From positions 496,001-560,000 of the forward strand of contig JAITUA010000020.1 of assembly GCA_031286615.1 (NCBI GenBank): a stretch of DNA of 64,000 bases, written 5' to 3'. The notes under the pieces were generated by a model. That model was not told where the DNA came from, made no database searches, and was given only the letters and a program-made list of their open reading frames with translations. Below are positions 15,092-25,538 of the stretch, piece after piece. The position numbers and the translations under genes were made by a program. Origin of the DNA: Chryseobacterium sp. Lineage in GTDB: Bacteria; Bacteroidota; Bacteroidia; Flavobacteriales; Weeksellaceae. The first letter of the stretch is position 1. Each line of letters opens with the position of its first letter.

Positions 15092-17020
15092 ATGTACGAT
15101 TCTCTTAGAAAAACAATATTTGGAGGGGATAATGTTGTCAATCTCTCAGACGTAAGATACCTTCCTAGATGGATAATTCTTGTAATAGACATTATTATTC
15201 TGGTTATATCTTTATTTCTTTCTACTTACATTATCGAAAGAATTACCAAGCAGGAATTTATATACCATGAAGATAAAAGCTTAATTTTTGCTTTTATTAT
15301 TGTGGCGAATACTGCTTTTATGTATCTCTTCAAGACATATGCCGGAATTATCCGCCATTCAACTTTTATAGATTTATTTAAGCTTCTGATATCTTGCTTT
15401 TGCACGATGCTGACTATCGGAACGATCAATATTCTTTATTTTTGGACTACAGGAGCTAAATTTATACTTACTCCCTATCTTATCCTTTATTTTGTCATTT
15501 CATTTATGGGATTATTCCTTTTCAGATTATATGTGAAAGAATTTTTCCATATTGTGAGGGAGTACAGAAGAAGTGCGCTGAAAAAAAGAATTTTAGTGTT
15601 AGGAATTGATGAACAGTCAATTGCAATTGCACGTGCTATTCTTGATAATCCGAGCCTGCCTTATCAGGTAGTAGGTTTTTTAACTCAAAGAACAGATTCT
15701 AAAAGGGCATCTCTACTTGGAAAGCCGATTTACGGAAAGCAAAAAATAGAAGAAAACACGAAAGAAGATCTTATTATTGATGGGATTCTCATTGTTAAAG
15801 AAATGATGGCCAGAGATGAGATGAACGCGTGGGTGAATTTATTTTTAGAGAAGGATCTTAATGTCTTTAAAGCACCGTCAGTACAAAAGCTAAGAGACAG
15901 CGATTTGGGGGGATCTATCAGAAATCTTCAAATTGAAGACTTATTAAATAGAAAACCTATCAAAATTCAGAACGAAAAAGTAAAGAGCAGACATTTTGAT
16001 AAAACAGTATTAGTGACTGGTGGAGCAGGATCCATAGGAAGTGAAATTGTAAGACAGGTTGCTAACTTTAATCCTTCTTTAATTGTAATACTGGATCAGG
16101 CGGAAACTCCTCTTTATGAAATTGAACTCGAAATGAGGGATAAGTTTCCTCATATTGCTTTCAAATTTGTTTTAGGAGATGTTTCAAATCATCACAGAAT
16201 GGAATCCTTATTCCAGACCTATAAATTCTCGATGGTATACCATGCTGCTGCTTATAAGCATGTACCATTAGTAGAAGAAAATCCACATGAAGCAATTTTT
16301 GTTAATATATTAGGTTCAAAGATTGTTGCAAAATTATCCAGCAAGTATAAAGTAAACAGGTTTGTAATGGTATCTACAGATAAAGCTGTAAATCCCACCA
16401 ACGTAATGGGAGCTTCAAAACGAGCTGCAGAACTTTTTGTACAGTCGCTTCAAAATGTAGAGGGTAATGTTACCAAATTTATTACAACAAGATTTGGAAA
16501 TGTATTAGGTTCCAACGGTTCCGTAATTCCCCATTTTAAAAAACAGATTGAAGCTGGAGGTCCGGTAACCATCACTCACCCGGAAATTGTAAGATATTTT
16601 ATGACTATTCCGGAAGCATGTGAGCTTGTACTTCAAGCAGGAACAATGGGTGAAGGAGGTGAGATTTTTGTCTTTGATATGGGCGAACCTGTTAAAATTC
16701 TTGATCTTGCGAAAAGAATGATCAAATTATCAGGATTCGAACCTAATATTGACATTAAGATCATTTATACGGGACTAAGACCTGGAGAAAAGCTTTATGA
16801 AGAACTTTTAAGTGATGATGCGAAAACTCTTCCTACTCATAATGATAAAATTATGATTTCTAAAGACCCTTCTATGGGATTTGAAGAAATAGATACGCTT
16901 AGCACACAAATTACTAAAGCTTCTCTTAGAAGAGATAAAGTAGAAGTAGTAAGGATTCTTAAAACAATAGTGCCGGAATTTCGAAGCAATAATTCAATCT
17001 ATGAGGCGTTAGATAAATAG
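15092..17020 (+). CDS. UDP-N-acetylglucosamine 4,6-dehydratase, membrane form (PglF/WbpM/CapD-like)
   Basis: A 642-residue protein with four or five N-terminal membrane helices (about residues 25-150), a first nucleotide-binding domain (about 165-290) and a C-terminal short-chain dehydrogenase domain starting at VTGGAGSIGSEIVRQ. The catalytic block STDKAVNPTNVMGASKR has Met in place of the usual Tyr of YxxxK, as in the large membrane 4,6-dehydratases (PglF, WbpM). It would convert UDP-GlcNAc to the 4-keto-6-deoxy sugar. With the aminotransferase, acetyltransferase and sugar transferase at 36967-39328 it fits the di-N-acetylbacillosamine route; QuiNAc or FucNAc products are alternatives. It is the first gene of the locus. 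Confidence 0.9.
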   Translation: MYDSLRKTIFGGDNVVNLSDVRYLPRWIILVIDIIILVISLFLSTYIIERITKQEFIYHEDKSLIFAFIIVANTAFMYLFKTYAGIIRHSTFIDLFKLLISCFCTMLTIGTINILYFWTTGAKFILTPYLILYFVISFMGLFLFRLYVKEFFHIVREYRRSALKKRILVLGIDEQSIAIARAILDNPSLPYQVVGFLTQRTDSKRASLLGKPIYGKQKIEENTKEDLIIDGILIVKEMMARDEMNAWVNLFLEKDLNVFKAPSVQKLRDSDLGGSIRNLQIEDLLNRKPIKIQNEKVKSRHFDKTVLVTGGAGSIGSEIVRQVANFNPSLIVILDQAETPLYEIELEMRDKFPHIAFKFVLGDVSNHHRMESLFQTYKFSMVYHAAAYKHVPLVEENPHEAIFVNILGSKIVAKLSSKYKVNRFVMVSTDKAVNPTNVMGASKRAAELFVQSLQNVEGNVTKFITTRFGNVLGSNGSVIPHFKKQIEAGGPVTITHPEIVRYFMTIPEACELVLQAGTMGEGGEIFVFDMGEPVKILDLAKRMIKLSGFEPNIDIKIIYTGLRPGEKLYEELLSDDAKTLPTHNDKIMISKDPSMGFEEIDTLSTQITKASLRRDKVEVVRILKTIVPEFRSNNSIYEALDK

Positions 17021-17060: not shown

Positions 17061-17885
17061 ATGAAAGGAAAAATATTAGCAGTAATTTTGATGTCTTCTT
17101 TAGTGATTTCCTGTAAAGTAAATCCCAATGCTAAGAATGATTTAAATTATATGCAGAATATAGAACAGGTTGCAATCAATGCCTCTGCTAAAAATTCAGC
17201 AAATACAATCCAAACAGGAGATCAGCTTATTATTCTGATCACAGCAAAAGATATGGATGTTGTAAAGCCTTTTAATCAGAATTATTCTTCATCCGAACTT
17301 ATCCAAACAAATGCCATAGCAGGAGGAAACACTCCTAATCAAGGAGCAACAATACTGTCAGGACCAACATATATTGTTGATGCCAATGGAGATATTGACT
17401 TCCCAATATTGGGAAAATTGAATACGTCAGATAAAAGTTTGACAGCCTTTAAAGATGAATTAAGGGAAAAGATGACGAAATATGTTATCAATCCAACAAT
17501 TAATGTGAGGCTTTCGAATTTTAAAATTACAATGCTGGGTGAGGTAAACAGACAAGGAGACTATACCATAGCCAATGGACAAGCAACTATTTTGAATGCA
17601 TTAGGGATGGCTGGTGATTTGACTCAGTATGGAAAAAGAGAGGATATATTGGTGGTAAGAACGGAGAATGGCGTTGTTTCTCATGGCCGTGTTAACCTTC
17701 ATGATGCTAATTTGATTAACTCTCCATATTATAATCTGAAGCAAGGGGATGCTATTATTGTTTCTTCAAACAATACAAAAGATGTTTTAGCAAAACAAAA
17801 TCCCAACACTGGACTTTATCTGACCGCTATTTCTATTGCGGTTACAGCAGTTGCCGTAGTAGTAAGTTTATTTAATAAGAAATAA
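17061..17885 (+). CDS. Polysaccharide export lipoprotein, Wza-like
   Basis: A 274-residue outer-membrane export component. A lipoprotein signal with lipobox VISC ends at about residue 18. The polysaccharide export domain (about 50-145, with [20 protein letters not shown]) and a SLBB-type domain ([18 protein letters not shown]) follow. A hydrophobic C-terminal segment ([16 protein letters not shown]) ends in Asn-Lys-Lys. It is shorter than E. coli Wza but typical of Bacteroidota homologues. It would form the channel through which the Wzc partner, encoded four bases downstream, exports the polymer. Confidence 0.9.
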
Positions 17886-17889
17886 AAAA

Positions 17890-20280
17890 TTGATGGATAA
17901 CCAGCAATCTTCAGAATTTTCGGAAGAAGAAAAAAATTCAAGCAAAATTAATTTTAATGAAATAATCAAACCTTATTTAAGGAGATGGCCATGGTTTATT
18001 TTTTGTGCCATGATAGCAGTAATTATAGGTTATTTTGCAATAAAATTTATGACTCCGGTCTATTATGTAGAAACTACATTACTTATAAAAGATTCTAAAA
18101 ATTCTTCTTCAAATAATGATTTAGGGGTACTTTCTGATTTATCAGGATTGGGAGGAATGAAAACTAATAGTATTTCTAATGAGATTGAAGTCCTGAAATC
18201 AAAAAAACTGATGAGGGATGTTGTTATCAATAAAAATCTTCAGACCAATATCATTGTTAAAGGAAAAGTAAGTCGTGCTGAGCTTTATAAAGAATCTTCT
18301 CCTATTGAAGTAAAAGTTGTAAATGAAAAAGTATCTAAAAGCGCCAATAATCTCATTAATGTAGAATTAAAAGGAGAAGAAATTTTAATACATTATGAAG
18401 GGCTGAAAAAAGATATTGTTTCTGGCTATGGAAGAATGATAAGCCTTCCTTTTGCTAATATTATCATTACTAAAAATACAGGGTATAATCCTAAAGCATC
18501 ACCAACTGTTGATAAAAAGAATTTAGAATTAATCATATCAACAATTGAAGCAAAGGTTAATTCGTTAAGAGGAGTTCTTAGTGTAAATTTGGCAAACAAA
18601 GAAGCTACTGTCCTTAAGCTTTCAATAAATTACCCGGTAATTTCAAAAGCAGAAGACATTCTTAATTCATTAGTTGTCGCTTATAATAATGATGCTATTC
18701 TGGATAAAAACCAAGAGTCTAAAAAGACATTGGATTTTATTGAAGACAGAGTAAGAAAACTTTCAGTAGAACTAGGACAGGTTGAGAATGAAAAAGAAAG
18801 TTTTAAATCAAAAAATAACCTTACCGATCTTGAAACGGAAGCTAAAATAGATCTTGAAAGTTCTGCAACAGCTCGTGGTAAGCAGCTGGAGCTTGATGCT
18901 CAAATAGAACTGACAAATTCTTTGCTTTCTTTCATGTCTAAACAAGGACAATATCAGGTTTTACCTATAAATATTGGATTAAATAATCCCGAGGCTGTTT
19001 CAGGCATTACAAACTACAACCAATTAATACTGCAAAGAACGAGATTGCTGGAATCTGCAACTCCGGAAAACCCTATAGTTGTTGAAACAAGCAAACAAAT
19101 AAATGCAATGCGTGGTTCAGTAGTTCAAACTCTGCAAAGAAATAAAACAGGATTAGAACTTGCCAGAAATGAATATGTAGGAGAACAAAATAAAGTAACT
19201 GGAAAAATTGCGAGAATTCCTTCTATGGAAAAAATATTTAGAGGAATAGAAAGGCAGCAGCAAATTAAAGAAAACCTATACTTATTATTATTACAGAAAA
19301 GAGAAGAAACAGCTGTTGCACAGTCTATTACTGCACCGAAAGCAAGGGTAATTGATGCAGCTTATGCTTTTGCAAATCCTATTGCACCGAAGACCCAGGC
19401 TATCTTATTTGCTTCACTGTTTTTAGGATTGTTAGTTCCTTTTATTATTATTTATATGTTACAATTGTTTAATAATAAAGTTGTTACAAAACACGATCTT
19501 GAAAAGCTGGTGCATGCACCTATTATTGCAGAATTACCAAGTCTTGAAAAAGGAGATTCTGAAATAGTAAAAATGAATGATATTACTCCTATGGCGGAAG
19601 CATTTAGAATTCTTATTACCAATATGAATTTTATGCTTTCAAAAGAGAAAAAAGGAAAAGTTGTATTTGTCACTTCAACAGTAAAAGGAGAAGGAAAAAC
19701 CTTTACTTCCGTCAATTTAGCTTTAACATTGGCAAATCCTAAGAAAAAAGCAATTATCATAGGATCTGATATCAGAAATCCTCAGCTTCAAAGATACAAC
19801 CCTGCCAGAAAAGGTCTTACGGGGCTTACAGAATATCTTTATAATGACGATACAAAACTTGAAGATATTATTCATGTATCATCTTTTAATCCTTATCTGG
19901 ATGTAATTTATTCAGGAATGATCCCACCGAACCCAACAGAATTATTATCCAACGGTCGCTATGAGAGCCTTTTAAGTGAATTGAAAGATAAATATGAGTA
20001 TATTATCTTAGATACTGCACCATTGCTTCTTGTTACAGATACATTCCTTATTGCTGAACTTTCTGATATTACTATTTATGTATCCAGATCTAAATATACT
20101 GAAAAGTCATTGTTAGAATTTGCAAATAGCAATATAGATCAGAAAAAAATCAAAAATGTTGGATTCGTACTTAATGATGTAAATAGAGAAGATTTAGGAT
20201 ATAGTAACAAATATGGTTATGGATATAACCAACATACTGAGCAATCTTGGTTTCAAAAAATTAAAAATAAACTTAGTTAA
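17890..20280 (+). CDS. Polysaccharide co-polymerase / tyrosine kinase, Wzc-like
   Basis: A 796-residue BY-kinase. An N-terminal Wzz domain with a first membrane helix (about residues 37-55), a long periplasmic coiled-coil section and a second helix (about 500-525) lead to a cytoplasmic kinase domain. The kinase has Walker [17 protein letters not shown] and Walker A' [10 protein letters not shown]. The tail [12 protein letters not shown] is the tyrosine cluster that is autophosphorylated in this family. It controls chain length and, with the Wza-like protein, export. Its stop overlaps the next ATG by one base, so translation is probably coupled. Confidence 0.92.
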
Positions 20281-21575
20281 TGACAACAACATATAAAATA
20301 GCAGTTATAGGGCAGGGTTATGTAGGTCTTCCTTTATCTCTTGAATTTGCAGGTCACTATCCTGTCTTTGGATTTGATATTAATACACAGCGTGTTGAGC
20401 AGCTTAATAATGGAAAAGATATAACGCTTGAAGCAGATGTTGAGAAATTAAATAACGGACTGAAACAATATAATGAATCTAATGGTTCGTTAGGTTACAA
20501 AGCAACAAGTCTGTTGTCTGATATTTCTGAAGCTAATGTATTCATTGTAACAGTTCCTACCCCTATTGATAAATATAATGCTCCGGATCTGAATCCATTG
20601 ATTTCTGCTTCAAAAATGTTGGGTGAAATTATCAAAAAAGGAGATATTATTATTTATGAATCTACAGTTTTTCCAGGATGTACAGAAGAAGAATGCGTTC
20701 CTGTTCTTGAAAAATATTCAGGACTTCAGTTTAACGAAGACTTTTTTGTAGGATACTCTCCGGAAAGAATTAATCCGGGAGATAAAGTAAATACGCTTAC
20801 CAGTGTTAAAAAAGTAACTTCAGGTTCTACGGAAAAGATTGCAGAAGAAGTAGATAATCTATATAAGAAAATCATTACAGCCGGAACTCATAAAGCACCC
20901 AGCATTAAAGTAGCAGAAGCCTCAAAAGCTATTGAAAACGCACAAAGAGACGTTAATATTTCTTTTGTGAACGAGTTAGCTTTAATTTTTGATAGAGTAG
21001 GAATAGATACCAATGATGTATTGGAAGCTGCAGGTACAAAATATAATTTCCTTAAATATAAGCCGGGATTAGTAGGAGGACATTGTATCTCAGTAGATCC
21101 TTATTACCTGGCACACAAAGCAGAACAATTAGGATACCACCCGGATGTTATTCTATCCGGAAGACGTGTAAACGATTCTATTGCAAAGTTTGTTGCAGCT
21201 AAAGTAGTGAAACTTCTTATTGCAAAAGGTGGAATAATCAAAAATTCTAATGCTTTGATTTTAGGAGTTACCTTCAAAGAAAACTGTCCGGATGTCAGAA
21301 ATACTAAAGTTGTTGATATTTACAGAGAACTTGCTGATTATGGAGTAAATGTAGATATTTATGATCCGTGGGCTAGCAAAGAGGAAGTAAAACACGAATA
21401 TGGAATTGATATTCTGGATACTCTGCAGGAAGGGAAAAAGTATGATTCATTAGTTATTGCAGTATCTCATAATGAGTTTTTGGAAATGGATATGGATCAG
21501 CTTAAAAAAGAAAATGCTGTGGTTTTTGATACCAAAGCATGTTTAGACAGAAATCTGGTGGATGCAAGACTGTAA
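20280..21575 (+). CDS. UDP-N-acetylglucosamine 6-dehydrogenase (WbpA/WbpO/TviB family)
   Basis: A 431-residue nucleotide-sugar dehydrogenase. It has an N-terminal Rossmann motif (VIGQGYVGLPLSLEFAG), the central EASKAIENAQRDVNISFVNE helix, and the catalytic cysteine in LVGGHCISVDPYYL (about residue 267). It oxidises C6 of a UDP-N-acetylhexosamine to the uronic acid with two NAD+. Followed by WbpE-, WbpD- and WbpB-like genes, it most likely makes UDP-GlcNAcA, first step of the 2,3-diacetamido-uronate route. Sequence details look closer to the TviB/WbpO branch than to P. aeruginosa WbpA, so the exact hexosamine is not certain. Confidence 0.88.
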   Translation: MTTTYKIAVIGQGYVGLPLSLEFAGHYPVFGFDINTQRVEQLNNGKDITLEADVEKLNNGLKQYNESNGSLGYKATSLLSDISEANVFIVTVPTPIDKYNAPDLNPLISASKMLGEIIKKGDIIIYESTVFPGCTEEECVPVLEKYSGLQFNEDFFVGYSPERINPGDKVNTLTSVKKVTSGSTEKIAEEVDNLYKKIITAGTHKAPSIKVAEASKAIENAQRDVNISFVNELALIFDRVGIDTNDVLEAAGTKYNFLKYKPGLVGGHCISVDPYYLAHKAEQLGYHPDVILSGRRVNDSIAKFVAAKVVKLLIAKGGIIKNSNALILGVTFKENCPDVRNTKVVDIYRELADYGVNVDIYDPWASKEEVKHEYGIDILDTLQEGKKYDSLVIAVSHNEFLEMDMDQLKKENAVVFDTKACLDRNLVDARL

Positions 21576-21581
21576 CTGATA

Positions 21582-22772
21582 ATGAACTATGATATTATAA
21601 TCATTGGTGCAGGCTTGGTAGGCTTGGCTACGGCCTATCAGACTAAGCTGAAAAATCCTGATTCTAAGATTTTAATTTTAGAAAAAGAAAACGATGTTGC
21701 ATTGCACCAATCGGGACACAACAGCGGAGTTATCCATAGTGGAATTTATTATAAACCAGGAAGTCTTAAGGCAAAAAACTGTATCGAAGGATATAATTCA
21801 GTCATTAATTTTGCCGAAAAATATGGAATAAGATACGACCTTTGTGGTAAAATAATCGTAGCTACTTCACAGGAAGAATTACCCCTTTTAGATAATATTT
21901 ATAAAAGAGGTGTTGAAAACGGTCTGCAAAATTTAAAATACCTTTCAAGAGAAGAATTTCGTGAAATTGAACCCCATTGTGAGGGCGTAAAAGCAATCAA
22001 AGTTCCACAGACCGGAATTATCGACTACCCGGGAATAGCAAAAAAAATAAAAGAGCTTTTTGAAGAATTAGGAGGAGAAGTAAGATTTAACAATGAAGTA
22101 AAAAACATCATTGATAAAGGATCTGAAATTATTGTAAACACCAGTATTTCCGAATTTAAAACTAAAAAGCTGATTTCCTGTGCAGGACTCTATTCTGATA
22201 AGATTACCAAAATGACCAACGAAAAAAACGATGTGGTCATTATTCCGTTCAGAGGAGAATATTATAAAATTAAGGATGAAAAAAAATATTTGGTAAAACA
22301 TCTTATTTACCCGGTTCCTGACCCTAGTTTTCCTTTCCTTGGAGTACACTTTACCAGAATGATTGATGGTAATATCGAAGCTGGCCCTAATGCAGTGCTG
22401 GCTTTCAAAAAGGAAGGGTATCATTTTTTCGATTTCAATTTTAACGAAACAATGCAGACCATGCTATGGCCTGGATTTAGAAAAATTGTTGCGAAATACG
22501 GGAAAACAGGAATGGGAGAAATGCATCGTTCACTTTCCAAATCCGCATTTACAAAAGCTTTACAGAAACTTTTACCGGAAATACAGGAAAATGACCTCGT
22601 AGCAGGAGGTTCAGGTGTAAGGGCTCAGGCTTGTGACAGAAATGGAGGATTGATTGATGATTTTGATATCGTGAAAAACGGAAACATCATTCACGTTAGA
22701 AATGCACCCTCTCCGGCAGCCACTTCCTGTCTTTCTATAGGAAATAAGATCAGTGAGCTTATCGTGAATTAA
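21582..22772 (+). CDS. lhgO: L-2-hydroxyglutarate oxidase
   Basis: A 396-residue FAD enzyme of the DAO fold. It has an N-terminal IIGAGLVGLATAYQ dinucleotide motif, HQSGHNSGVIHSGIYYKPGS as in L-2-hydroxyglutarate dehydrogenases, a central YYKIKDEKKYLVKHLIYPVP region and a C-terminal GGSGVRAQACDRNGG flavin loop. Family members oxidise L-2-hydroxyglutarate to 2-oxoglutarate, often passing electrons to the quinone pool. Its place between the 6-dehydrogenase and the WbpE-like aminotransferase, in a six-base gap, is unusual for a metabolite-repair enzyme. It suggests service to the WbpB-like enzyme downstream, which uses 2-oxoglutarate as electron acceptor. Confidence 0.88.
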   Translation: MNYDIIIIGAGLVGLATAYQTKLKNPDSKILILEKENDVALHQSGHNSGVIHSGIYYKPGSLKAKNCIEGYNSVINFAEKYGIRYDLCGKIIVATSQEELPLLDNIYKRGVENGLQNLKYLSREEFREIEPHCEGVKAIKVPQTGIIDYPGIAKKIKELFEELGGEVRFNNEVKNIIDKGSEIIVNTSISEFKTKKLISCAGLYSDKITKMTNEKNDVVIIPFRGEYYKIKDEKKYLVKHLIYPVPDPSFPFLGVHFTRMIDGNIEAGPNAVLAFKKEGYHFFDFNFNETMQTMLWPGFRKIVAKYGKTGMGEMHRSLSKSAFTKALQKLLPEIQENDLVAGGSGVRAQACDRNGGLIDDFDIVKNGNIIHVRNAPSPAATSCLSIGNKISELIVN

Positions 22773-22807
22773 AATGCACCTCTACGTGCACTCAAAAAAC
22801 TAAAGAT

Positions 22808-23932
22808 ATGAAAATTCAAATGGTTGACCTTAAAGGTCAATACCTGAAAATAAAAGAAGACGTAGATGCCGGTATTCAGGAATGTATAGACAATACAGCA
22901 TTTATTAACGGTCCTGCTGTAAAAGAATTTCAACAGGATTTTGAAAAATATTTGGGTGTAAAACATGTTATTCCATGTGCTAACGGAACAGACGCCCTTC
23001 AAATTGCCATGATGGCACTTGATCTGCAGCCCGGTGACGAAATTATCTGCCCTGCTTTCACTTATGTAGCTACAGCTGAAGTTATTGGTCTTTTAGGATT
23101 AAAACCGGTAATGGTAGATGTACACGAAGATACTTTTGATATTGAGCTGGAGGATTTACAAAAATATCTGACATCCAATACCAAAGCAATTGTTCCCGTT
23201 CATTTATATGGCCAAAGTGCCAATATGGAAAAGATTCTTGAATTTGCAGAAAAACACAATCTTTTTGTTATAGAAGATAATGCTCAGGCAATTGGTTGTG
23301 ATTACACTTTCTCTGATGGAACTGTCAAAAAAACAGGAACTATAGGCCATATCGGATGTACCTCATTTTTTCCGTCAAAAAACCTTGGCTGCTATGGTGA
23401 TGGAGGTGCGTTAATGACGAATGATGATGACCTGGCTTTAAAAATCAGAATGATTGCCAATCATGGTCAGGAAAAGAAATACTATCATAAAGTTTTGGGC
23501 TGTAATTCCAGATTGGATACAATTCAGGCAGCCGTTTTAAAAATTAAGCTAAAACACCTGGACGAATACTCTGCTGCCAGAAATAGAATGGCTGATTATT
23601 ATGATAAAAATCTTGCAGATATTGCCGAAATTCAAACTCCTAAAAGAGCTGAAAACTCTACCCATGTATTCCATCAGTATACCCTTAGAGTAAAAAATGG
23701 GAAAAGAGATGAACTACAGAAATACTTGGCAGAAAAAAATATTCCAAGTATGATATATTACCCTTTGCCCCTTTATAAACAAGAGGCTTTTCTTCAATAT
23801 GTAGAAGCAGGCTTTAGTCTTCCTGTTACGGAGCAGCTTTGCGCTGAAGTGATTTCCATTCCCGTACATACAGAATTTAATCAGGAAGTATTGGATGTTA
23901 TTGTTACAGAAATTAAGAATTATTTTAATTAA
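22808..23932 (+). CDS. UDP-3-keto-GlcNAcA aminotransferase, WbpE/WlbC-like (DegT family)
   Basis: A 374-residue PLP aminotransferase of the DegT/DnrJ/EryC1 family. Visible motifs are IPCANGTDALQIAMMAL, DEIICPAFTYVATAE, VIEDNAQAIG and the PLP lysine in FFPSKNLGCYGDGGA. WbpE-type enzymes transfer the amino group of glutamate to C3 of the 3-keto uronate sugar, releasing 2-oxoglutarate. The next two genes are WbpD- and WbpB-like, which supports this substrate rather than a 4-keto sugar. Normal length; in operon. Confidence 0.87.
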   Translation: MKIQMVDLKGQYLKIKEDVDAGIQECIDNTAFINGPAVKEFQQDFEKYLGVKHVIPCANGTDALQIAMMALDLQPGDEIICPAFTYVATAEVIGLLGLKPVMVDVHEDTFDIELEDLQKYLTSNTKAIVPVHLYGQSANMEKILEFAEKHNLFVIEDNAQAIGCDYTFSDGTVKKTGTIGHIGCTSFFPSKNLGCYGDGGALMTNDDDLALKIRMIANHGQEKKYYHKVLGCNSRLDTIQAAVLKIKLKHLDEYSAARNRMADYYDKNLADIAEIQTPKRAENSTHVFHQYTLRVKNGKRDELQKYLAEKNIPSMIYYPLPLYKQEAFLQYVEAGFSLPVTEQLCAEVISIPVHTEFNQEVLDVIVTEIKNYFN

Positions 23933-23944
23933 TATAAAGCAGAT

Positions 23945-24517
23945 ATGTCAGATTTTTTTGCACACGAAACAGCTGTTATTGATGAAGGTTGCCAGATAGG
24001 GACCGGAACGAAAGTTTGGCATTTTTCACACCTTATGACCGGCTGTGTTTTGGGAGAAAAATGTAATATAGGACAAAACGTTGTTATTTCTCCAAAAGTA
24101 GTGTTAGGAAAGAATGTAAAAGTTCAGAATAATGTTTCTATCTATGAAGGTGTAACATGTGACGATGATGTTTTTTTAGGCCCTTCAATGGTTTTTACCA
24201 ACGTAATAAATCCTAGAAGTGCTGTAAACAGAAAGAATGAATATCTTAAAACACACGTTGGAAAAGGTGCATCTATAGGAGCTAATGCAACCATTGTCTG
24301 TGGACATAATATAGGTCAGTATGCATTTATCGGAGCAGGAGCTGTAGTCACAAAAGAAGTGCCGGATTATGCATTGGTGGTAGGAAACCCTGCCAGACAA
24401 ATGGGGTGGATGAGTGAATTTGGACAAAGACTTCATTTTGATGCAGAAAATATTGCCGTTTGTGAAGAAAGTGGAGAAAAATACAAATTAGAAAATAATA
24501 AAGTTTCTAAAATTTAA
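23945..24517 (+). CDS. UDP-2-acetamido-3-amino-glucuronate N-acetyltransferase, WbpD/WlbB-like
   Basis: A 190-residue left-handed beta-helix protein made of hexapeptide repeats. It starts with the diagnostic GTGTKVWHFSHLMTG and includes PSMVFTNVINPRSAVNR and ASIGANATIVCGHNIG, closely following the WbpD/WlbB pattern. These enzymes acetylate the 3-amino group to give UDP-2,3-diacetamido-2,3-dideoxy-glucuronic acid. It lies 12 bases after the aminotransferase. Among the genes of this block, its family assignment is the clearest and anchors the pathway call. Confidence 0.9.
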   Translation: MSDFFAHETAVIDEGCQIGTGTKVWHFSHLMTGCVLGEKCNIGQNVVISPKVVLGKNVKVQNNVSIYEGVTCDDDVFLGPSMVFTNVINPRSAVNRKNEYLKTHVGKGASIGANATIVCGHNIGQYAFIGAGAVVTKEVPDYALVVGNPARQMGWMSEFGQRLHFDAENIAVCEESGEKYKLENNKVSKI

Positions 24518-24527
24518 AAACAAACAA

Positions 24528-25538
24528 ATGAGTGAAAAAATAAAATTTGCAGTAGTTGGCTGCGGGCATATCGGAAAAAGACATGCCGAAATGATCTCAA
24601 GAAATGAAGAATGTGAATTGGTTGGATTAATCGATGTTAAAGATAAATCTGTCTTGGGCATTGAAAATTATGAAGTTCCCTTTTTTGCTTCACTGGATGA
24701 GTTTCTGGCTTCCGGTATTGAAGTGGATGTTATTAATATTGCATCTCCAAACGGATTCCATTTTGAACAATCTTATAAAGTGATAGATGCAGGAAAGCAC
24801 GTTGTGGTAGAAAAACCAATGGCTTTGAAAAAACAGCATGCCGAAAAACTTATTTTTCAGGCGTTGCACAAGCATAAGCAGGTGTTTGCAGTAATGCAAA
24901 ACAGATACTCTCCACCTTCTGCATGGGTAAAAGAAATGGTAGAGAGCGGAAAATTGGGGAAAATATATATGGTTCAGCTTAATTGCTACTGGAACCGTGA
25001 TGACCGATACTATAAACCGGAATCATGGCATGGAAAGAAAGAGCTGGATGGAGGAACTTTATTTACACAGTTCTCTCACTTTATAGATATTATGTACTGG
25101 TTATTCGGTGATATTACTAATATTCAGGCGAAATTTGCAGATTTTAATCATGAGAGACTTACTGATTTTGAAGATTCAGGTTTCGTTAGTTTTGATTTTG
25201 TAGACGGAGGAATGGGGTCTTTAAATTATTCTACTTCAGTTTGGAATCAGAATCTTGAAAGTTCAATGACAATTATCGCGGAGAATGGCTCTGTGAAGAT
25301 TGGAGGACAATATATGGACAAAGTAGAAGTTTGCAATATAAAAGACTATGTAATGCCGGAATTAGCTCCAACGAATCCTGGAAATGATTATGGCGCTTAT
25401 AAAGGGTCTGCAGCCAATCACCACTTTATCATTGAAAATGTTGTAGATGTATTAAAAGGAAGAAATACTATTACTACGAATGCTTTGGAAGGATTGAAAG
25501 TGGTAGATATTATAGAAAGGATTTATAATCTTAAGTAA
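24528..25538 (+). CDS. UDP-GlcNAcA 3-dehydrogenase, WbpB/WlbA-like (Gfo/Idh/MocA family)
   Basis: A 336-residue NAD-dependent oxidoreductase with an N-terminal VVGCGHIGKRHAEMI Rossmann motif, the EKPM motif (VVVEKPMALK) and a C-terminal sheet domain including CYWNRDDRYYKPESWHG and GGTLFTQFSHFIDIMYWL. WbpB-type enzymes oxidise C3 of UDP-GlcNAcA and regenerate NAD+ by reducing 2-oxoglutarate to 2-hydroxyglutarate. It lies 10 bases after the WbpD-like gene. Gfo/Idh proteins are diverse, so the call depends partly on neighbours. Confidence 0.85.
   Translation: MSEKIKFAVVGCGHIGKRHAEMISRNEECELVGLIDVKDKSVLGIENYEVPFFASLDEFLASGIEVDVINIASPNGFHFEQSYKVIDAGKHVVVEKPMALKKQHAEKLIFQALHKHKQVFAVMQNRYSPPSAWVKEMVESGKLGKIYMVQLNCYWNRDDRYYKPESWHGKKELDGGTLFTQFSHFIDIMYWLFGDITNIQAKFADFNHERLTDFEDSGFVSFDFVDGGMGSLNYSTSVWNQNLESSMTIIAENGSVKIGGQYMDKVEVCNIKDYVMPELAPTNPGNDYGAYKGSAANHHFIIENVVDVLKGRNTITTNALEGLKVVDIIERIYNLK

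Follow-up and report, generated by a model that had tools for sequence, protein, structure and literature searches.

An L-2-hydroxyglutarate oxidase gene conserved within a diamino-uronic acid cassette of Chryseobacterium: a candidate recycling partner for nucleotide-sugar synthesis

Introduction

Why does a gene for an L-2-hydroxyglutarate (L-2-HG) oxidase, lhgO, lie among genes for the synthesis of a diamino-uronic acid? We addressed this question for a cassette in a 64,000-nucleotide stretch of Chryseobacterium sp. DNA (hereafter, the window; C5:496001-560000 of a 4.88 Mb genome with 99.9% completeness). Five open reading frames (ORFs) were confirmed on the + strand at 20280-25538 in the order wbpA-lhgO-wbpE-wbpD-wlbA. 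The initial annotation had placed lhgO on one strand between wbpA- and wbpE/D/B-like genes, and its coordinates, strand, and intergenic gaps (6 bases from wbpA to lhgO, 35 bases from lhgO to the wbpE-like gene) proved exact. With a 6-dehydrogenase, a 3-dehydrogenase, an aminotransferase, and an acetyltransferase encoded together, the set for the UDP-GlcNAc(3NAc)A (Wbp/Wlb) pathway is complete. Our best reading, to which we assign a probability of roughly 45%, is that the cassette includes lhgO as a conserved component and that LhgO re-oxidizes L-2-HG made by the pathway, with the electrons passing to the respiratory chain. The reading draws on gene order, protein families, the LhgO binding pocket, the lock-step occurrence of LhgO and WlbA, and the lack of PF02913 and CsiD proteins, from which we infer the mechanistic steps.

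A related loop is known. In Pseudomonas aeruginosa, WbpB is described as converting 2-oxoglutarate to D-2-HG, which D2HGDH recycles, and loss of D2HGDH as lowering O-antigen (PMC8651671). The recycling idea advanced in the initial annotation is thus already published in its D form; what would be new is an L-type, cassette-encoded variant, in which the maker of L-2-HG is predicted only. As in P. aeruginosa, a 2-HG recycler would back a UDP-N-acetylglucosaminuronic acid (UDP-GlcNAcA) 3-dehydrogenase pathway for surface polysaccharide and regenerate 2-oxoglutarate. The Pseudomonas recycler (PA0317), however, belongs to another flavoprotein family and is reported to serve SerA as well (PMC8651671), whereas here the predicted recycler is encoded inside the sugar cassette of a genome without PF02913, and the sugar dehydrogenase is of another subgroup.

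Conservation and Co-occurrence within the Family

The wbpA-lhgO-wbpE order with wlbA downstream was present in 30/30 Chryseobacterium loci, 28 of which also contain wbpD, while the genes behind the cassette differ. These loci came from 42 that had been fetched by similarity to the window LhgO and are thus biased toward near relatives. The entire five-gene order also occurs in one genome each of six other genera of the family (G013, G134, G027, G012, G014, and G086), and together these loci led us to reject the cassette as a local curiosity.

A less biased co-occurrence test covered 197 genomes of the window's family (f1). LhgO was found in 31 and WlbA (E ≤ 1e-60) in 87, including 32 genomes in which WlbA is at least 76% identical to that of the window; this line was set after the values were seen, the next value being 72%. 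All 31 LhgO genomes have such a close WlbA, and lhgO and wlbA share a contig in 30 of them, separated by 0.7-4.3 kb. Only one of the 32 close-WlbA genomes (G103) lacks LhgO. Counted LhgO occurs in 0/165 genomes lacking a close WlbA, where G031 (71% WlbA) holds an uncounted copy cut by a contig end. Fisher tests, all of which ignore kinship, gave 2e-35 by genome, 8e-34 when G031 was counted against the 76% line, 3e-13 with WlbA at E ≤ 1e-60 (31/87 versus 0/110), and 3e-8 by genus (9/33 genera). WbpD (E ≤ 1e-50) was retrieved from 31/197 genomes, 29 of them shared with LhgO; G031 and G057 have WbpD without a counted LhgO, and G020 and G091 have LhgO without WbpD. The G057 locus was not counted as a cassette because its WbpD-like gene (74-75% identical) adjoins only 28% Gfo/Idh and 36% aminotransferase matches. 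Within the family, the link between LhgO and the pathway is well supported.

LhgO Sequence and Predicted Activity

The window LhgO scores 541.3 bits against the NCBIfam model NF008726 (cut-off 299). Its nearest solved structure is 8w75 (359 bits; PDB name FI05204p), which we take to be the fly L-2-HG dehydrogenase of the dmL2HGDH structure paper. Residues S88, H92, Y289, H302, and R393 of dmL2HGDH are described as contacting 2-oxoglutarate (PMC10726252), and their counterparts in LhgO (S48, H52, Y243, H256, and R347) are all kept. These five are invariant in 104/104 aligned LhgO rows (85 distinct sequences, from cassettes and stand-alone genes; 4 of 108 rows had been dropped for stops or length). 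The fly enzyme is reported to be inactive on D-2-HG, L-malate, and L-lactate (PMC10726252). By sequence, the window protein belongs to the L-2-HG oxidase/dehydrogenase family, and that activity is predicted for it; on the basis of the NF008726 score, the 8w75 match, and the intact contact residues, we rejected misannotation of some other DAO enzyme. Within the genus, lhgO is under strong purifying selection (ratio of nonsynonymous to synonymous polymorphism [pN/pS], 0.03-0.09; synonymous divergence [dS] is saturated in several pairs), and the closest named LhgO proteins are from Chryseobacterium, that of C. sediminis being 99% identical. A quick tree of a thinned set of 59 rows, G031 not among them, placed the cassette LhgO proteins (22/59 rows) on one side of a branch with a Shimodaira-Hasegawa-like approximate likelihood ratio (SH-aLRT) of 100.

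A protein that is so strictly tied to the cassette, and that in some strains has acyl-transfer genes of variable type close by, might be LhgO-like with a changed substrate, oxidizing a sugar nucleotide or an acyl substituent of the polysaccharide. We regard this as very improbable, given that the 2-oxoglutarate contact residues are retained in every aligned row and that the family score is far over the L-2-HG oxidase cut-off. UDP-GlcNAcA, moreover, is no alpha-hydroxy acid.

Other 2-Hydroxyglutarate Enzymes

No protein with PF02913, presumably the domain of D-2-HG dehydrogenase, was found in the window's genome; 11/14 control genomes were positive. The domain was retrieved from 0/33 family genomes tested (completeness being 56% in one and 80% in another) and, among 34 WlbA genomes outside the family, from 25 of the 27 tested. 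CsiD was likewise not found in the window's genome, and the formation of L-2-HG from glutarate via CsiD was rejected on that ground. LhgO is therefore the sole 2-HG oxidase recognized in this genome by these searches, which covered PF02913 and CsiD and do not exclude NAD-linked (nicotinamide adenine dinucleotide) or other types. Known lhgO contexts are described as csiD/gabDTP or lhgR (PMC8206213; for LhgR-LhgO, PMC6265302). The window shares its enzyme family with the CsiD-LhgO and LhgR-LhgO systems; unlike them, it combines a genome without CsiD with lhgO neighbors that are polysaccharide genes. In the open-access literature searched, no publication was found that links lhgO to a polysaccharide locus or LhgO to Chryseobacterium.

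Subgroup of the 3-Dehydrogenase and Proposed Mechanism

The initial annotation had placed the product of the final gene with the 2-oxoglutarate-using enzymes of the WbpB type, a grouping that did not hold. In sequence and fold, over its full length, the dehydrogenase is closest to 3q2k and 3q2i (WlbA of Bordetella pertussis and Chromobacterium violaceum), its nearest solved relatives at about a third identity. Profile scores were 251/242 bits for 3q2k/3q2i versus 75 for 3oa2 and 67 for 3o9z, the latter two covering only ~200-210 positions; we take 3oa2 and 3o9z to represent WbpB of the P. aeruginosa/Thermus thermophilus group. The fold comparison used a structure model with a predicted local distance difference test (pLDDT) value of 92, and a poorer model (pLDDT 64) was set aside. 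P. aeruginosa and T. thermophilus WbpB were not among the 50 matches listed for WlbA, a result that was not used as a test. By these comparisons, the window enzyme groups with WlbA and not with the WbpB enzymes that use 2-oxoglutarate in a ping-pong mechanism. According to a 2011 paper, WlbA of the B. pertussis/C. violaceum group reportedly needs no 2-oxoglutarate. A ping-pong mechanism with alpha-ketoglutarate is described for P. aeruginosa WbpB and a sequential one for the enzymes of B. pertussis and C. violaceum (PMC10622841).

In the proposed loop, WbpE would aminate the 3-keto sugar and convert glutamate to 2-oxoglutarate, reduced NAD (NADH) derived from WlbA would serve, most likely with WlbA itself as the catalyst, to reduce 2-oxoglutarate to L-2-HG, and LhgO would return L-2-HG to 2-oxoglutarate with quinone as the electron acceptor. 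Overall, respiration would pull an uphill sugar oxidation, and the by-product would be removed. Recycling by LhgO would demand the L form of 2-HG, with which the missing D-2-HG enzyme type agrees. In its fullest form, which we offer as a tentative proposal, the loop would be a mirror image of that in Pseudomonas: WlbA makes L-2-HG, LhgO from the same operon burns it via respiration and so drives nucleotide-sugar oxidation, and the whole constitutes a transferable cassette with its own recycler in a family without the D-2-HG dehydrogenase type.

Evidence Weighing against the Loop

Features of the dehydrogenase, its distribution in the phylum, and cassettes lacking a whole wbpE weigh against recycling by LhgO. 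The nearest characterized relatives of WlbA are the sequential-mechanism enzymes noted above, and the product described for WbpB is D-2-HG, not L-2-HG; WlbA as the maker of L-2-HG is a prediction contrary to the known behavior of those relatives. No alignment column splits 17 LhgO-linked from 17 unlinked WlbA rows. Co-occurrence could also arise from physical linkage alone, with linked genes traveling together. An indirect partnership would accommodate part of this: WlbA would free NADH as in B. pertussis, another dehydrogenase would use this NADH to make L-2-HG from the 2-oxoglutarate released by WbpE, and LhgO would clear it. The sequential mechanism described for the WlbA group (PMC10622841) and the lack of a position separating linked from unlinked WlbA agree with this arrangement, as does the lock-step pattern. 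We nonetheless consider it improbable, as the NADH should in any case be consumed by respiratory NADH dehydrogenases and the flux through the pathway should be small relative to central 2-oxoglutarate pools.

Beyond the family, we analyzed a sample of 395 Bacteroidota genomes (LhgO at E ≤ 1e-80, WlbA at E ≤ 1e-100). LhgO occurred in 151, WlbA in 39, and both in 31 (Fisher 4e-8), yet 8/39 WlbA genomes lack LhgO, and 22/31 shared genomes belong to family f24, where LhgO is common anyway. Outside f1 and f24, LhgO accompanies WlbA in only 4/12 genomes, in none of which the two were seen side by side, and in G212 and G535 both LhgO and PF02913 are missing although WlbA is present. Among the 26 shared genomes outside the window's family, no lhgO-wlbA neighbors were observed; in 21 of them the listed copies are split between contigs, and in 5 they are at least 150 kb apart, although neighbors could be hidden by contig breaks and second LhgO copies of G221, G233, and G294 were unlisted. 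In other loci read (L042-L044), lhgO lies away from wbp-type genes. WlbA therefore does not generally need a 2-HG recycler, and the LhgO-WlbA tie is a trait of the window's family. The expectation that lhgO would recur near wbp genes in other genomes is borne out for Chryseobacterium and the six further genera; no such neighbors were seen in the 26 genomes outside the family. The initial proposal of a dedicated recycler is supported in part, by the family lock-step, the pocket, and the lack of PF02913 and CsiD.

In f24, a different neighborhood was observed. LhgO lies within ~4 kb of an ~950-amino acid PF02913 protein in 13/15 genomes tested (e.g., L215, L217, L222, and L228), which suggests a joint locus for L- and D-2-HG clearance.

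Natural Variants of the Cassette

The remaining difficulty concerns WbpE: G182, G093, and G030 carry lhgO without a whole cassette wbpE (G182 keeps a 102-residue remnant), with a 59-62% paralog elsewhere. Some WbpE relative is present in 10/10 genomes tested, and in 9 of them a 58-63% relative is located outside the cassette. This second relative (e.g., G000 C19:221986-223086, and in eight other genomes, including genomes without the cassette) is possibly, as a guess, the PorR-type aminotransferase of type IX secretion system anionic lipopolysaccharide (A-LPS). PorR is described as a WbpE homolog (PMC4031482).

In G103, the one close-WlbA genome without LhgO, wbpA directly adjoins wlbA with no wbpE or wbpD there, no WbpD was retrieved at E ≤ 1e-50, and there is no cassette wbpE; relaxed constraint was sought in its WlbA, where 1 deviation in 98 near-invariant columns is not unusual. 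Three g5 genomes examined, G035, G004, and G067, have a WlbA of 65-72% and no LhgO, and no cassette-type wbpA, wbpE, or wbpD was seen in the 19 kb read, G067 having 38% wbpE and 45% wbpD relatives. G031 (56% complete) encodes another LhgO lineage right after its own wbpE-wbpD-wlbA at a contig end, 42-51% identical to other lineages over 85-110 residues. This apparently reflects an independent recruitment, and the genome was scored as lacking LhgO most likely because the contig ends inside the gene. In G030, lhgO and wbpD-wlbA lie on separate contigs amid other genes, both intact.

These variants bear on whether LhgO merely performs general repair, removing L-2-HG formed by promiscuous malate or lactate dehydrogenase, with lhgO carried by a block-moving cassette and no biochemical link. 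The single clade of cassette LhgO is consistent with a single entry followed by block transfer, and both the LhgO genes found across the Bacteroidota away from wbp genes in the loci read and the WlbA genomes without LhgO would be expected. General repair accounts less readily for the absence of counted LhgO from family genomes without a close WlbA, for a further LhgO, unrelated to the first, that adjoins wbpE-wbpD-wlbA in G031 (cut by the contig end), and for the retention of lhgO after separation in G030. We rate it as a serious but unlikely alternative to recycling of pathway-made L-2-HG.

Acyl-transfer genes also vary. In place of wbpD, four loci (L023 12355-15427, L033 12354-15432, L264 7744-10819, and L265 8388-11463) encode a fused 2-oxo-acid dehydrogenase E1 of 643 amino acids (PF00676 plus transketolase domains) and an acyltransferase; a fused E1 and an acyltransferase are what replaces wbpD in genomes G020 and G091. 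The 384-amino acid partner in the four loci has a hexapeptide acyltransferase end (PF00132) and an N-terminus that appears lipoyl-like by eye and that Pfam does not confirm; the pair might pass the acyl moiety of a 2-oxo acid directly to the amino sugar. Directly 3' of wlbA, L191 (7963-9534) and L193 (5707-7281), both from genomes that lack an intact cassette wbpE, encode a PIG-L-type deacetylase (with a Pfam match for the L193 copy) and an acyltransferase that is LpxD-like by eye, perhaps a different N-acyl route.

Locus Architecture

The cassette is part of a capsule-type locus that starts at 15092 with 4,6-dehydratase-like, Wza-like, and Wzc-like genes, which also precede the cassette in relatives (Table 1). 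The WbpA-like protein carries PF03721/PF00984/PF03720, scores 521 bits against the TviB model NF011729 (under the cut-off of 592), and gave no match in a PDB sequence search at 1e-60; it likely converts UDP-N-acetylglucosamine (UDP-GlcNAc) to UDP-GlcNAcA. For the WbpE-like protein, 7b0d was the first PDB match (344 bits), followed by the P. aeruginosa WbpE structures 3nyu/3nu7/3nys (320-323 bits), and glutamate-dependent amination at C3 with release of 2-oxoglutarate is likely. The WlbA-type enzyme is likely the UDP-GlcNAcA 3-dehydrogenase. Located 3' of the cassette are a flippase-like gene (weak match), an O-antigen ligase/polymerase-type gene, and a fused amidotransferase for which 3-acetamidino modification of a 3-amino sugar is a possible function; further ORFs resemble glycosyltransferases by eye. 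A promoter and terminator scan was uninformative (64 promoter-like sites versus 48.9 expected; 9 terminator-like sites versus 5.1 expected).

No WbpI-type 2-epimerase, by which the UDP-ManNAc(3NAc)A pathway would be recognized, is encoded in the cassette, the rest of the genome not having been searched for one. The A-LPS pathway of Porphyromonas gingivalis is likewise a Bacteroidota WbpA/B/E/D system for which no WbpI is reported as found; unlike the window cassette, its Wbp genes are described as scattered (PMC4031482). The main text of that paper mentions neither hydroxyglutarate nor an oxidase.

Table 1. Features of the capsule-type locus in the window
Feature	Position	Strand	Basis or remark
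UDP-GlcNAc 4,6-dehydratase-like	15092-17020	+	upstream of cassette
Wza-like export protein	17061-17885	+	upstream of cassette
Wzc-like tyrosine autokinase	17890-20280	+	last base is first base of wbpA start
Nucleotide-sugar 6-dehydrogenase, WbpA/TviB-like	20280-21575	+	TIGR03026 397 bits (cut-off 189.8)
LhgO, L-2-HG oxidase family (flavin adenine dinucleotide, DAO)	21582-22772	+	NF008726, PF01266
WbpE-like pyridoxal phosphate aminotransferase	22808-23932	+	PF01041 380 bits
WbpD/WlbB-like hexapeptide N-acetyltransferase	23945-24517	+	PF00132; 3mqg (lipopolysaccharide acetyltransferase) 226 bits
WlbA-type Gfo/Idh/MocA dehydrogenase (B. pertussis/C. violaceum group)	24528-25538	+	sequence and fold
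Glutamine amidotransferase and WbuX-like sugar amidotransferase fusion, 610 amino acids	28237-30069	+	GATase_6; TIGR03573 145 bits (below cut-off 203)

Implications

Recycling of pathway-made L-2-HG by LhgO leads to a specific prediction, namely that L-2-HG is formed by WlbA of a group described as sequential, and this bears on whether 2-oxoglutarate use really sets the two WlbA groups apart. If the reading is true, bacterial LhgO would act in biosynthesis as well as in lysine/glutarate catabolism, and a large environmental genus would have its surface-polysaccharide synthesis coupled directly to respiration.

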